A program made the translations under genes and the position numbers. Below are positions 18,826 through 63,184 of a stretch of 64,000 nt of DNA, in pieces (positions within the stretch are counted from its first letter, which is position 1; each line of letters starts with the position of its first letter). Below the pieces are notes generated by a model, which had not been told where the DNA came from, searched no databases, and saw nothing but the letters and a program-made list of their open reading frames with translations. Source of the stretch: Catellatospora citrea (lineage in GTDB: Bacteria > Actinomycetota > Actinomycetes > Mycobacteriales > Micromonosporaceae); the NCBI RefSeq assembly GCF_003610235.1, contig NZ_RAPR01000001.1:3348001-3412000 (forward strand), in the 5' to 3' direction.

Positions 18826-19332
18826 TCAGAGGGTGGATTGGAGGGCGGCGTCCTTTTGGGCGACGAGTTCGGTGAGGCTGTGGGCGTAGTCGGCGAGCTT
18901 GGCGCGCAGGGTGGCGTCGTGGGCGCCGAGGATGCGGGCCGCGAGCAGGCCTGCGTTGCGGCCGCCCGCGATCGAGACGGTGGCGACCGGGATGCCCGCG
19001 GGCATCTGCACGATGGACATCAGTGAGTCCATGCCGTCGAGGTACTTCAGCGGCACCGGCACACCGACCACCGGCAGCGGCGTCACGCTGGCGACCATGC
19101 CGGGCAGGTGGGCCGCCCCGCCCGCGCCCGCGATGATGACCTTGATACCGCGATCCGCGGCCGTCTGGCCGTAGTCGATCATGAGCTGCGGCGTACGGTG
19201 CGCGGACACGACCCGGACCTCGTACGACACGCCGAACTCGGCCAGCGCCTCGGCGGCGGGCTTCATCACGGGCCAGTCCGAGTCGGAGCCCATGATGATC
19301 CCCACCAGCGGTGCCGGGGTCTGCTCGCTCAT
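18826..19332 (-). CDS. purE: N5-carboxyaminoimidazole ribonucleotide mutase PurE
   Basis: A 168-residue class I PurE of de novo purine synthesis, converting N5-CAIR (made by PurK) to CAIR. Motifs: [12 protein letters not shown] near the N-terminus, [27 protein letters not shown] and [11 protein letters not shown]. Its ATG overlaps the TGA of a 24-codon mini-ORF that links it to purK, and it lies in the 3' arm of a perfect 11-bp hairpin, so its translation probably depends on ribosomes arriving from the mini-ORF. Last gene of the minus-strand cluster. Confidence 0.96.
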
Positions 19333-19403
19333 GCCGGAACTCCGCTTCGCTGCGTTCCGGCATGTGCACCGGACCCCATGATTCGCGCGCTGCGCTCGCT
19401 CAT
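19329..19403 (-). CDS. Coupling mini-ORF between purK and purE (24 aa)
   Basis: A 24-codon ORF whose ATG overlaps the purK stop (ATGA at 19403-19400) and whose TGA overlaps the purE ATG (ATGA at 19332-19329). It starts [12 protein letters not shown] and ends QRSGVPA. No homology is expected at this size; the exact double overlap is the evidence that it is translated. Its likely job is to carry ribosomes from purK into purE and open the hairpin over the purE start. Compare the mini-ORFs at 50566, 51716, 51778 and 63137. Confidence 0.5.
19330..19364 (-). promoter_or_regulatory. Hairpin sequestering the purE start codon
   Basis: Perfect 11-bp inverted repeat: CATGCCGGAAC (19330-19340) and GTTCCGGCATG (19354-19364). 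In the minus-strand mRNA the 3' arm ends with the purE ATG itself, so the folded RNA would hide the start codon. Confidence 0.6.
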
Positions 19404-50152: not shown

Positions 50153-50521
50153 TTAAGCGACGTCGCCGTCGATGATCGGACCGCCCACGGGCGCCTTGAC
50201 GCCGTTCTCCCACATGAGGAAACGATCGGTCTCGCTGATCAGGGCCCCCGCGATCCAGCTCACGATGATCACGTCATCGGCCAGGCCGAGGACCAGGAGG
50301 AACGCCTCCGGGACCATGTCGACCGGGGACACCACGTACACCGTGGCCGCCGTGATCGCCATGAGCCGGCCGAGGCCGTCGTACCGGCCGCGCAGCGTGG
50401 CCAGCACCATGCGCGGCATCGCGCCCAACCGGTCCGCCAGGCTGGCGTTGCTGCCGTTCCCCGTGATGAGTGCCTTCCACAGCGCAGTGAACGCTGCGGT
50501 ACGACGCAATGTGCGTCCCAT
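50153..50521 (-). CDS. YkvA/DUF1232 family membrane protein
   Basis: A 122-residue protein with the DUF1232 signature AATVYVVSPVDMVPEAFLLV followed by GLADDVIIVSWIAGAL, a membrane-inserted helical pair. The family is widespread and uncharacterised. The ATG at 50521 follows GGAGGCGAG. It lies 31 bp upstream of cbs and may be cotranscribed with it. Divergent from the SGNH operon. Confidence 0.85.
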   Translation of the reverse strand: MGRTLRRTAAFTALWKALITGNGSNASLADRLGAMPRMVLATLRGRYDGLGRLMAITAATVYVVSPVDMVPEAFLLVLGLADDVIIVSWIAGALISETDRFLMWENGVKAPVGGPIIDGDVA

Positions 50522-50565
50522 CTCGCCTCCATCCGAGCGCAACCGAAGAGCGCTACCTTTCTCGC

Positions 50566-50661
50566 ATGAGCGAGCGTTACCAGCTGACGATCCGCTGGGT
50601 ACGTAGGAGCCTCAGAGAGGATTCCCCGACGGGTCTCCCGAGTGAGGCGGGTTCACTATGA
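50566..50661 (+). CDS. Leader mini-ORF before the first SGNH gene (31 aa)
   Basis: A 31-codon ORF beginning MSERYQLTIRWVRRSL. Its TGA (50659-50661) overlaps the ATG of the first SGNH gene as ATGA. The start ATGAGCGAGCG repeats at the downstream gene's own start. It would act as a leader peptide that couples translation; no protein family. Confidence 0.45.
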   Translation: MSERYQLTIRWVRRSLREDSPTGLPSEAGSL

Positions 50662-51719
50662 GCGAGCGTACTGCGCTGGGCGCCACGGCGGCACAACGTC
50701 GCGGCAGGGACCTGGCCAAGCTGGCCGTCTATGGAGGCGGCGCGCTGGGCGCGCTCGGCCTGGCCACCGTCGGGGTGCTGCTCGGCCAGGTCGAAGCCGC
50801 CCGGCGCACCATTCCCATCGCGCAGGCCCCGCCGCCGCGCTCGGACGGCCTCTACGGCGGCCGGTTCGGCGGAGAGCCGGTGCACATGGCCATGCTCGGC
50901 GACTCCTCGGCGGCCGGGTTCGGCGCGCTGCGGGCCCGGCAGACCCCGGCGGCGCTGATCGCCACCGGGCTGTCCCGGCGTCTGGAAAGGCCGGTGCGGC
51001 TGCACAGCCTGGCCGTGGTCGGCGCGACCTCGGGAATGCTGGTGCACCAGGTGGAAGAGGCCCTGGAACTGCGCCCCGACCTGGCCGTGATCCTGATCGG
51101 AGCCAACGACATCACCCACCGGGCCGGGCAGGCCGCATCCGTACGCCACCTCGCCGACTCGGTGCGGCGGCTGCGTGAGGCCGGCGCGACCGTCGTCGTG
51201 GGCACCTGCCCCGACCTCGGCGCGGTGCAGCCCATCCGGCCGCCGCTGCGCTGGCTGGCCCGCAGCTGGAGCCGCCAGCTCGCCGCGGCGCAGACCGTCG
51301 CCGTGGTGGAGGCCGGGGGCCGCACCGTGTCCCTGGGCGAGCTGCTGGGACCGACGTTCTCCGCCCAGCCGCACCGGCTGTTCGCCCGGGACCGCTTCCA
51401 CCCGTCCGCGGAGGGCTACGCGCTGGCCGCGTCGGTGCTGCTGCCGACGGTGGTGGCCGCCCTGCGCAGCCCCGCCGGGCCACAGCGCGTGGAAGCGGGC
51501 GCACGAACCGCCGTGGACGGGGTACGGTCGCTGCCACAGGCCGCGGTCGAGGCGGCGCGCCACGCCGGCACTGAGGTGAGCGGCGTACGCGTCGACGGCC
51601 GTGATCGCGGCCCGGCCGGCCGGTGGGCGCAGCTGCGCCGCCGCATGTGGGAAGTAGTCCGCCAGGGCGAGGCCCCAGCCGGCCTGGCAGACCGGGCGAA
51701 CGTGGTGGAGCAGGCGTGA
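50658..51719 (+). CDS. SGNH/GDSL hydrolase, first paralogue
   Basis: A 353-residue membrane-anchored esterase-like protein. An N-terminal helix (LAVYGGGALGALGLATVGVLL) anchors it. Block I is MAMLGDSSAAGFGAL with the nucleophile Ser in GDSS, the block III Asn is in ILIGANDITH, and block V is RFHPSAEGYALAA, supplying Asp/His. The last about 90 residues are a charged tail absent from the next paralogue. It shares RRLREAG and VVVGTCPDLGA with the gene at 51849, from which it is separated by two coupled mini-ORFs. Confidence 0.88.
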   Translation: MSERTALGATAAQRRGRDLAKLAVYGGGALGALGLATVGVLLGQVEAARRTIPIAQAPPPRSDGLYGGRFGGEPVHMAMLGDSSAAGFGALRARQTPAALIATGLSRRLERPVRLHSLAVVGATSGMLVHQVEEALELRPDLAVILIGANDITHRAGQAASVRHLADSVRRLREAGATVVVGTCPDLGAVQPIRPPLRWLARSWSRQLAAAQTVAVVEAGGRTVSLGELLGPTFSAQPHRLFARDRFHPSAEGYALAASVLLPTVVAALRSPAGPQRVEAGARTAVDGVRSLPQAAVEAARHAGTEVSGVRVDGRDRGPAGRWAQLRRRMWEVVRQGEAPAGLADRANVVEQA

Positions 51720-51781
51720 GCGGGCGGGACGGGTCGGCACGGTCCCGCGCCGACGAGGAGCGGAGCGAGGAGCGGGCATGA
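51716..51781 (+). CDS. Coupling mini-ORF 1 between the SGNH genes (21 aa)
   Basis: Starts at a GTG inside the stop of the first SGNH gene (GTGA, 51716-51719) and ends in a TGA that overlaps the ATG of mini-ORF 2 (ATGA, 51778-51781). Its C-terminus is DEERSEERA, encoded by a repeat that also occurs at 51826 and 63136. Confidence 0.45.
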   Translation: MSGRDGSARSRADEERSEERA

Positions 51782-51782
51782 G
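51752..51782 (+). repeat. GAGCG-rich initiation repeat, copy 1
   Basis: GACGAG followed by GAGCGGAGCGAGGAGCGGGC and ATGAG. It contains the GAGGAG ribosome binding site and the ATG of mini-ORF 2. Twenty-five bases (51758-51782) are identical to copy 2. Confidence 0.7.
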
Positions 51783-51852
51783 CGAGCTTGTCGAGCGAAT
51801 CACGATGCTCGGTGGACATGTCCGCGACGAGCGGAGCGAGGAGCGGGCATGA
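51778..51852 (+). CDS. Coupling mini-ORF 2 between the SGNH genes (24 aa)
   Basis: Starts at the ATG overlapping the end of mini-ORF 1 and ends in a TGA overlapping the ATG of the second SGNH gene (ATGA, 51849-51852). It begins MSELVERI, similar to MSERSARI of the purK-purE mini-ORF, and ends RDERSEERA. Confidence 0.5.
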   Translation: MSELVERITMLGGHVRDERSEERA

Positions 51853-51853
51853 G
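51826..51853 (+). repeat. GAGCG-rich initiation repeat, copy 2
   Basis: 28 nt, GACGAGCGGAGCGAGGAGCG then GGCATGAG. Carries the ribosome binding site and ATG of the second SGNH gene. Differs from the copy at 63136-63163 (minus strand) at two positions. Confidence 0.7.
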
Positions 51854-52652
51854 TTCCGTGGCACGGAGGATCGGGAAGGCCGCCGCGATCACGCTCATCG
51901 CGGGCACGGTGGGCGGCGCGGCGCTGCTGGCGGCCGAGGCGGTGGTGGCGCGCAGCCGCCGGTACGCCAAGCCGGGGCTGGGCCTCGCGCTGCGCACCAC
52001 CGTGGGCGCGGACAACGCCACCCCGCTGCGGCTGGTCATGCTCGGTGACTCCGCCGCCCTGGGCGTGGGCGTGGACCGGGTCGCCGACACCGTCGGCGGC
52101 CAGCTGGCCACGCTGCTGTCCGGCGGCGAGTCCGGCAAGGGCGGCCCGGTGCAGGCCGTGGCGCTGTCCAGCGTCGGCGTCGCCGGGTCCCGCTCGTCGG
52201 ACCTGGCCACCCAGGTCGCTCGGTGCCTGCTGGGCGACCGCCCGGACGTCGCGGTGATCCTGGTCGGCGGCAACGACGCGATCACGCTGCGCCGCCCCGC
52301 GGACGCGGCGGCCTACCTGGGCGCGGCGGTGCGCCGCCTGCGCGAGGCCGGGGTCGAGGTCGTCGTGGGCACCTGCCCCGATCTGGGCGCGGCCCGCGCC
52401 ATCGCGCCGCCGCTGCGCCAGGTCGTCGGCTTCCTGGGGCGCCGGGTGGCGCGGGCGCAGGTGCGCGCCGTGCACGCCGCCGGCGGGGCCGTGGTGGACC
52501 TGGCCGCCGAGACCGGCCCGGTGTTCCGCGCCGACCCGAACACGCTGTCCGTCGACCGCTACCACCCTTCCGCGGACGGCTACCGGGTGTGGGCGTACGC
52601 CCTGCTCCCGTCCGTCGCCCACGCCGCCGGAGTGACCCCCCGCCTGCCCTGA
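51849..52652 (+). CDS. SGNH/GDSL hydrolase, second paralogue
   Basis: A 267-residue protein with an N-terminal membrane anchor (AAAITLIAGTVGGAALLAAE), block I LVMLGDSAALGVGV (nucleophile Ser of GDSA), ILVGGNDAITL and RYHPSADGYRVWAY with the Asp/His pair. It is a paralogue of the gene at 50658 but lacks the long tail. GAGGAG in the upstream repeat serves as the ribosome binding site. Probably a lipase/esterase acting on envelope substrates; unproven. Confidence 0.88.
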   Translation: MSSVARRIGKAAAITLIAGTVGGAALLAAEAVVARSRRYAKPGLGLALRTTVGADNATPLRLVMLGDSAALGVGVDRVADTVGGQLATLLSGGESGKGGPVQAVALSSVGVAGSRSSDLATQVARCLLGDRPDVAVILVGGNDAITLRRPADAAAYLGAAVRRLREAGVEVVVGTCPDLGAARAIAPPLRQVVGFLGRRVARAQVRAVHAAGGAVVDLAAETGPVFRADPNTLSVDRYHPSADGYRVWAYALLPSVAHAAGVTPRLP

Positions 52653-62526: not shown

Positions 62527-63140
62527 AGTTTCTCCAAGGCATTGACGATCACATCGAGTTCGCGAGGGCTGGGCGGGCGCTTGGCCGGCACCGTGAGGAG
62601 CGTCCAGAGCGGATCACCGAGCAGCCTACGCGCGCGTTCGGGCTCGGTCGCGCGGTTGACGCCGTGGCGCTGGCGCAGCCGCTCGTCGACGACCTCGGCC
62701 AGGCGCGGCTGCACCCGGCGCTGGAAGCGGGCGGCGTCGGTGTGGCTCCACTCCAGGATGGTCTCCCAGCGGGCCACCGCCAGCCGCAGGCCGTCGGTGA
62801 CCTCGGACTGGTCGTCCGCGACGGTCCGGCCCGCGCGGCGGGGCGGCAGCGGGGCCTTGAGCGAGCGGGCCATCCGCCACACCCCCACCACGGTCAGCGC
62901 CACCGCGAAGACCAGCGGCAGCGGCATGCTCAGGCTGAACACCTGGAGCGTGAGCCAGCCCGCGGTGGTCCAGGCGACGGCGAACCCGAGCAGGCTCAGC
63001 CAGCGCGTCGCCTTCGGCCGAGGCGGGCGGGCCGCGACGGGCCCCTCCGGCCGGCTGAACCCGCCAAGCAGGTCGCCCAGGGTCGCGCCCTCGTCGACGT
63101 CACCGTCGACGAAGTCGTCGTGCTCCCGATGCTGGCTCAT
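62523..63140 (-). CDS. Two-helix membrane protein of the MoxR operon
   Basis: A 205-residue protein: an acidic N-terminus (DDFVDGDVDEGATLG), two transmembrane helices (WLSLLGFAVAWTTAGWLTL, PLVFAVALTVVGVWRMA) and a cytoplasmic domain of about 95 residues with RWETILEWSHTDAARFQRRV. Common in actinobacterial MoxR clusters; function unknown. Its ATG overlaps the stop of a 15-codon mini-ORF. Confidence 0.7.
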   Translation of the reverse strand: MSQHREHDDFVDGDVDEGATLGDLLGGFSRPEGPVAARPPRPKATRWLSLLGFAVAWTTAGWLTLQVFSLSMPLPLVFAVALTVVGVWRMARSLKAPLPPRRAGRTVADDQSEVTDGLRLAVARWETILEWSHTDAARFQRRVQPRLAEVVDERLRQRHGVNRATEPERARRLLGDPLWTLLTVPAKRPPSPRELDVIVNALEKL

Positions 63141-63163
63141 GTCCGCTCCTCGCTGCGCTCGTC
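63136..63163 (-). repeat. GAGCG-rich initiation repeat, copy 3
   Basis: 28 nt on the minus strand, GACGAGCGCAGCGAGGAGCG then GACATGAG; two mismatches to the copy at 51826-51853. Supplies the ribosome binding site and ATG of the gene at 62523-63140. Confidence 0.7.
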
Positions 63164-63184
63164 GAGGACATACCCGAAGCTCAT
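63137..63184 (-). CDS. Coupling mini-ORF in the MoxR operon (15 aa)
   Basis: Encodes MSFGYVLDERSEERT. Its ATG overlaps the stop of the DUF4129 gene (63184-63181) and its TGA overlaps the ATG of the next gene (63140-63137). Same C-terminal DERSEER as the SGNH mini-ORFs, and the same double-overlap architecture. Confidence 0.5.
   Translation of the reverse strand: MSFGYVLDERSEERT

Follow-up and report, generated by a model that had tools for sequence, protein, structure and literature searches.

Two adjacent SGNH hydrolase genes of Catellatospora citrea are preceded and separated by very short reading frames, each of which shares four nucleotides with the next. The question raised by this locus is what these mini-ORFs are and how so many stop/start overlaps could come to follow one another. 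A sequence-only reading of the stretch concerned (64,000 nucleotides, positions 3,348,001 to 3,412,000 of contig NZ_RAPR01000001.1, referred to here as the window) had proposed that the mini-ORFs are translated relays which set the ratio of the downstream proteins, or that they encode small functional peptides. Comparison within the genome, the genus and the order points to another answer. In our view the middle mini-ORFs are, with high probability, copies of a MIRU-like mobile repeat, short and non-autonomous, that inserts at start/stop overlaps and keeps translational coupling.

The overlap chain at the SGNH locus

Direct reading of the window confirmed the chain as it had been described: four 4-nt stop/start overlaps (ATGA, GTGA, ATGA and ATGA) link five consecutive ORFs on the forward strand, namely mini-ORFs of 31, 21 and 24 codons and the two SGNH genes. 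The first is a leader ORF with an ATG start and 31 codons plus stop (50566..50661), the TGA of which overlaps the ATG of SGNH1 (50658..51719), encoding a GDSL/SGNH-like hydrolase of 353 aa (PF13472, E 7e-27). Behind it lies a GTG ORF of 21 codons plus stop (51716..51781). This is a decayed repeat unit of 62 nt plus ATGA (unit proper 51716-51777, length 2 mod 3), of which only the 3′ part matches the repeat family presented below (R1 match at 51744-51781, model positions 38-75, E 1.3e-4). At its 3′ end it carries a Shine-Dalgarno-like (SD-like) GAGGAG (51767..51772). The second middle ORF, with an ATG start and 24 codons plus stop (51778..51852), is an intact unit of 71 nt plus ATGA (unit proper 51778-51848; R1 match at 51782-51852, E 3.5e-15). 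Its SD-like GAGGAG (51838..51843) is located 5 nt upstream of the ATG of SGNH2 (51849..52652), encoding a GDSL/SGNH-like hydrolase of 267 aa (PF13472, E 1e-19). Mechanical ORF calling opens two of the frames further upstream (50509 and 51623); the starts named in the sequence-only reading draw their support from the relatives and the repeat family rather than from such calls.

Both middle mini-ORFs contain a 29-nt DNA repeat (51754-51782 and 51825-51853, 97% identical). The peptide DERSEERA, which they had been said to share, has to be shortened to ERSEERA, as the first reads DEERSEERA and the second DERSEERA. The motif GAGCGGAGCGAGGAGCGGGCATGAG, with up to three mismatches, occurs three times in the window and was not found in 100 shuffles. 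Two further repeat matches lie on the reverse strand of the window, at 19329-19403 (R1, E 6e-10) and 63137-63175 (E 1.8e-5), and same-strand ORFs of 168 and 205 codons, respectively, are located downstream of them.

A dispersed repeat family in the C. citrea genome

Both middle mini-ORFs belong to a dispersed repeat of about 71 nt, the first as a decayed copy and the second as an intact one. Compared with its own genome, the DNA of 51710-51860 yielded 47 matches at E<=10, all but one of them at 8.1e-6 or better. A core of 19 nt, two mismatches being allowed, occurs 29 times in the genome, against no occurrence of the reversed control. From the first loci, 39 units were parsed from NTGA to NTGA by a pattern that imposed no frame condition; their lengths were 59, 65, 68, 71 and 119 nt, and 39/39 were 2 mod 3. 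With R1, a sequence-only model built from 31 aligned units, we detected at least 117 matches (E<=0.01). They form 97 arrays, of which 79 hold one match, 16 two and 2 three; the remaining 23 of 140 matches, with E above 0.01, were set aside. In 18/97 arrays there is more than one match, i.e. tandem copies in variable number. At most 150 candidates were scored per genome in the repeat searches, so that copy numbers and prevalences given here are lower bounds.

By consensus, a unit forms a short ORF that reaches from ATGA to ATGA; its length is 2 mod 3, and GAGGAG lies some 5 nt ahead of the following ATGA. In Catellatospora the units are mostly 71 or 68 nt long. Within the 71-nt unit a distance of 45 nt separates the internal direct repeats, GAGCGCAGCGAG. 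NTGA is present at both ends of 67 of the 70 full-length units, and 63 of these 67 are 2 mod 3, the other four being out of frame. No internal stop codon interrupts 61 of the 63 in-frame units, while two contain one. In 2/31 aligned units a frameshift is compensated, +1 and -1 cancelling each other.

These features suggest a mechanism. A unit would insert at RTGA, usually preceded by C, where the stop codon of an upstream gene overlaps the start codon of a downstream gene. Since it brings a length of 2 mod 3 together with its own SD and RTGA, insertion would turn one 4-nt overlap into two. A ribosome finishing the upstream gene would then re-initiate on the short ORF of the unit, terminate at the next ATGA and re-initiate on the downstream gene. 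Such termination-reinitiation along -4 overlaps, most of them with an SD-like sequence, would render the insertion little harmful to the downstream gene. We infer that the mini-ORFs are translated, that ribosomes pass through the relay and that its presence is largely harmless.

A different reading takes the repeat as an RNA structure or attenuator in which the ORF is incidental. A weak hairpin, ATGCC...GGCAT, is indeed predicted near the 3′ end, but the fold energy of the unit in the window is ordinary (z -0.58), the covariation term is -0.15 with both-sided change in 1/12 pairs, and the frame rule is not expected from a structure. A search of Rfam gave no match at the units. On account of the ordinary fold energy, the poor covariation and the lack of an Rfam match this reading was rejected, and we consider it even less credible than the peptide reading discussed below. 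The two arms (columns 42-46 and 70-74 of alignment A1) could pair around the SD and the start codon, and a both-sided change of one pair is seen in one unit; the arms may form a weak start-codon hairpin.

Position of the arrays relative to genes

For the analysis of array positions, coding was judged from the open frame and GC3, without a gene caller, and arrays were left out of the respective counts when a complete 3′ end (8/97) or a defined 5′ end (32/97) was missing. On the 3′ side, 86/89 arrays terminate in RTGA, and 81/89 lead directly into an ORF on the same strand that has coding-like high GC3 and a length of 60 codons or more, whereas 8/89 do not. The downstream test is also passed by 1033/2076 control RTGA (1143/2435 in an earlier form of the control). 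As sole proof of placement at gene starts it was rejected as too weak, about half of the control RTGA passing, and the argument is therefore carried by the upstream test and by both tests jointly. On the 5′ side the end is defined in 65 arrays, 42 of which start inside the stop codon of a coding-like ORF, compared with 75/2076 control RTGA; among the remaining arrays, 17/65 have a same-strand coding-like ORF ending at most 400 nt upstream and 6/65 have none. Jointly, the upstream and downstream tests are passed by 34/59 arrays with both ends, compared with 26/2076 control RTGA. The arrays share the orientation of the gene that follows and sit at its start codon.

In 81/85 arrays an SD-like GGAG, AGGA or GAGG precedes the gene start. 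C directly precedes the first unit in 50/65 arrays, compared with 10/26 control overlaps (the control was counted by eye), and GC does so in 35/65; this C may partly derive from older unit ends, as at 3238577. A side observation concerns the genes behind the arrays, 24/85 of which open with at least seven bases of the unit start (ATGAGCG...), while this start is seen in 0/26 overlapping starts and 20/2076 RTGA of the controls. Such gene starts go back either to a preferred target or to element sequence that now serves as an N-terminus.

Bare and occupied sites in related genomes

The nearest relative of the C. citrea SGNH1 protein is that of C. paridis (99%). Both in C. paridis and in C. sichuanensis, SGNH1 and SGNH2 are joined by a bare ATGA and the units are absent. 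In C. vulcania one 71-nt unit is located exactly at the junction. Relays of 35 and 71 nt were read in C. methionotrophica, at least two units in C. coxensis (the contig ends inside), a single 47-nt relay in C. bangladeshensis, relays of 17 and 26 nt in C. tritici and one of 17 nt in strain KI3. Among 72 other named loci, four Micromonospora loci (L079, L125, L133 and L134) have strong matches at the SGNH junction, mostly of 80 nt; the remaining ones gave only weak or partial matches. A lack of conservation of the overlaps in close relatives had been named beforehand as an outcome that would refute the sequence-only reading; we found the overlap to be retained even in the absence of the mini-ORFs.

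By queries of joined flanks, i.e. empty sites, 14 further sites were sought within the genus. Three of them were dropped on account of mixed indels in the listed matches (S4, S5 and S10; the S5 flank also holds an older unit end), and 11 were followed, with 60 loci read in a set that does not cover each genome at each site. An unbroken link from the upstream to the downstream gene via -4 overlaps is kept in 57/60 loci; as the definition of a link already requires 2 mod 3, the finding lies in the proportion linked. Of these loci, 31 are bare and 26 have relays (21 one, four two and one three), with 12 different relay lengths (8, 11, 26, 29, 32, 44, 53, 59, 62, 68, 71 and 140 nt). The three unlinked loci comprise one gap (L239) and two cases in which no stop was found in the upstream frame (L255 and L256). 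Some short relays at these sites are no longer similar to the unit. At site S1 the unit number differs between species, one unit being present twice, two units twice, and a fused pair and the solo form once each; at site S2 from 0 to 3 units are present. Presence or absence of units thus varies exactly at RTGA. That this polymorphism includes true insertions, and that the units are mobile by some route, we infer.

These data bear on the main idea of the sequence-only reading, according to which the relays are regulatory, their number and sequence tuning the ratio of upstream to downstream protein and being retained for that purpose. Its first half, the relay, is supported by the comparison, in that the chain stays in frame over many unit lengths and in compensated and fused variants. 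The SD-like motif before most gene starts and the different unit numbers at S1 would suit regulation. On the other hand, presence, number and sequence vary among close species, bare sites at the same junction included, and for this reason tolerated insertions fit better than a setting that is kept. We regard a regulatory role as unlikely.

Chance stop/start overlaps in a GC-rich genome have to be considered as well. Single 4-nt overlaps are common, and the 26/2076 control RTGA near arrays that pass both tests resemble gene overlaps. The claim that the overlaps go beyond chance is nevertheless borne out by the shuffles of GAGCGGAGCGAGGAGCGGGCATGAG, the control of the 19-nt core, the repeat family, the bare sites and the conservation of frame. 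For the two middle mini-ORFs, chance was rejected on the last three grounds and has next to no probability; in the case of the leader ORF its presence in all eight Catellatospora sequences examined argues against it.

Change, gain and loss of units

If the middle mini-ORFs are mobile units as proposed, they would, after insertion, amplify in tandem, shrink by recombination, or drift in sequence, with the chain mostly intact. Tandem copies at one site are often nearly identical, suggesting local amplification. Solo forms of 26 nt, which retain only 9 codons, were read in four loci (S1, S7 and S9 of genome G002 and S13 of G004), and we propose recombination between the GAGCGCAGCGAG direct repeats as their origin, because it would yield this form. 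In genome G010 two bases are lost at a unit junction of S1; stop and start are gone, and a fused ORF of 140 nt remains in frame.

Functional small peptides encoded by the mini-ORFs, the second proposal of the sequence-only reading, are not supported by these observations. In favour of peptides, the true-frame pN/pS of the outer unit parts is 0.60 for 71-nt and 0.46 for 68-nt units, below the shifted frames. This is a modest excess of synonymous change. Once two codons are left out, 4 and 19 in the 71-nt and 4 and 18 in the 68-nt units, the values rise to 0.75 and 0.78. Moreover, the middle codons are free to vary, shifts are compensated in 2/31 aligned units, solo units are left with 9 codons and some relays measure just 8 or 11 nt. 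A small-peptide reading of the single locus was rejected in view of the dispersal of the units and the lack of constraint on their middle, and peptides in general appear very improbable. What persists, to judge from the sequences, is the chain rather than the peptide.

The direction of change can be read from a flank-based tree, which is unrooted, with much missing data, little sequence for G006, G007 and G009 and poor support of some inner nodes. G001 and G006-G009 cluster with full support, and their role as outer group is an assumption. At S1 the outer genomes read (G007, G008 and G009) are bare and 6/6 inner genomes carry a unit or solo form. At S2 units are confined to G000, G004 and G005 among ten genomes read, and at S11 to G000 and G004 among eight. 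The patterns of S1, S2 and S11 agree with one gain each, into a site that had no unit, whereas S7, S8 and S12 require losses or repeated gains; the polarity is clear for only some sites. Since more distant Catellatospora carry relays at the SGNH junction, its bare state in C. paridis and C. sichuanensis could stem from precise loss.

The leader ORF

The leader ORF with the identical SGNH1 overlap is found in 8/8 Catellatospora sequences (the window and seven named loci, KI3 being left out). The distances are 92, 95 or 86 nt, all of them 2 mod 3 and without internal stop, and in C. tritici the sequence is mostly different. In the window the leader ORF has ATGAGCGAGCGT at both its start and its end. 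The repeat model R1 did not match it (50566-50661) in the C. citrea genome, and the C. methionotrophica version gave a weak match (E 0.17). The leader ORF thus appears to be conserved, yet not clearly a repeat unit. Six bases upstream of its ATG there is a possible -10 element, TACCTT (50554..50559), and TACC[TG]T stands 6-7 bases before the matching ATG in 7/8 named Catellatospora loci (KI3 is unreadable there). The transcript may therefore begin at the ATG of the leader ORF, i.e. it may be leaderless.

Scans of 50500-51900 for a sigma-70 consensus promoter, which do not reach other promoter types, and for a terminator consensus found nothing. The former result speaks against the idea that the units are promoters which let the downstream gene be expressed alone. 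A precedent exists in the MIRU-holding senX3-regX3 intergenic region, which can drive senX3-independent expression of regX3 (PMC4213456). A promoter role would however leave the frame rule unexplained, and we consider it improbable.

Distribution

Matches to the repeat were obtained in 11/11 Catellatospora genomes, C. citrea included, with 9 to at least 149 matches each. The copy number thus varies more than tenfold among species of one genus, suggesting bursts. In the family, Micromonosporaceae, at least 148/200 genomes and 34/44 genera have matches (Catellatospora included), and in the order at least 99/249 genomes and 36/69 genera (the family included); at most 24 candidates per genome were scored in the family search and 19 in the order search, and these prevalences are lower bounds. 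Outside the genus, 98/99 of the full-length matches listed are 2 mod 3, and the in-frame ones among them have six lengths from 71 to 86 nt, 80 of them being 80 nt long.

Strong cases in other families of the order are G249 (at least 18 matches, the best at 2.4e-12), G333 (at least 18) and G254 (at least 12); together with G326 they have at least 12-18 matches each. Possibly these four represent separate branches between the Micromonosporaceae repeat and MIRU. Many further matches beyond the family are weak and occur singly, and chance may account for them.

Among the papers listed in a literature search, no title or abstract opening described such repeats in Micromonosporaceae; an earlier description is possible. 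A paper on a Micromonospora genome gives a count of 27 interspersed repeats (PMC4392142).

Relation to MIRU and other repeats

MIRU target DTGA upon insertion. They appear to be mobile and to insert at start codons, and their internal ORF is coupled at -4 nt (reviewed in PMC12548453, where start-codon insertion is credited to Supply et al. 1997). In senX3-regX3, tandem MIRU units of 77 and 53 bp are described (PMC4213456), both of them 2 mod 3 as are the Catellatospora units. MIRU292, as printed in PMC7977185, becomes a 53-nt RTGA-to-RTGA ORF when rotated to ATGA.

A MIRU fragment used as query matched in 19/397 genomes of the order, all of them of one genus (g51), which we take to be Mycobacterium. 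Of 32 copies examined there, 19 lacked a flanking RTGA on one side over the distance searched and were left out; the 13 with RTGA at both sides are 2 mod 3 without exception, one containing an internal stop.

The traits of MIRU recur in the Catellatospora repeat: dispersal at many sites, gene-wise orientation with placement at start codons, an ORF with 4-nt overlaps on both sides (63/67 in frame, 42/65 beginning in the upstream stop), an RTGA target with bare sites in relatives, and variable tandem copies. Both share a similar 3′ module, GCCGnCGAC..GAGCGCAGCGA.GAG. Unlike MIRU, the repeat has another 5′ half (ATGAGCGAGCGCAGCGAGCGAATC), longer units (68, 71 and 80 nt), an internal direct repeat yielding the 26-nt solo forms, and other hosts.

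Several comparisons address a possible common origin of the 3′ module. The local alignment of repeat and MIRU scores 33, which is reached by 33/5000 shuffles (undefined consensus bases filled in). R1 matches MIRU loci with a best E of 7e-4, in loci preselected by a motif thought to be similar. Conversely, 13/66 matches of the MIRU model R2 in the C. citrea genome fall on units, on the same strand and near the 3′ end (counted by hand); the units cover roughly one part in a thousand of the genome, none of the matches is individually significant and the top four lie elsewhere. On 54 stretches enriched for units, 23/26 R2 matches fall on units (counted by hand). Homology to the mycobacterial MIRU is thus probable, for the 3′ part only.

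Mycobacterial small ORFs joined to the next gene by RTGA have been reported, at least one of them with a non-conserved primary sequence, and many begin leaderless transcripts (Shell et al. 2015, PMC4633059). The 31-codon leader ORF, perhaps likewise leaderless, resembles these. There the ORFs are described one by one, the main text making no mention of MIRU (PMC4633059), whereas the middle ORFs reported here are copies of one dispersed repeat.

As a class, the units resemble repeats of the REP, BIME and MITE type, which are likewise short, non-autonomous, dispersed and of high copy number in bacteria. REP are palindromic, lie outside genes and are not known to follow such a frame rule; in contrast to REP, no strong fold was found in the repeat.

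Conclusions

On a broader view, mobile elements aimed at start/stop overlaps may make up a superfamily that spans the order and has MIRU among its branches. It would be defined by arithmetic (any length of 2 mod 3 with an SD and RTGA) rather than by a peptide or fold, and each insertion would then be nearly invisible to translational coupling. We hold this as a tentative proposal, with the odds slightly against it. Targeting of C|RTGA junctions on the sense strand seems too specific for nothing but random insertion and selection and would imply a dedicated mobilisation route.

Annotation is concerned as well: mini-ORFs of this kind would have to be regarded as element sequence and not as conserved small proteins, which perhaps applies to some MSERSE-like gene starts behind them too. 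At the sites examined, one and the same gene pair, found bare or with one, two or three units, in solo or fused form, offers natural experiments. Questions that can be tested with them are the efficiency of ribosome passage along -4 overlaps and the way in which an enzyme-less element of 71 nt reaches start codons. The findings point to a system of the MIRU kind in Micromonosporaceae, beyond the mycobacteria.
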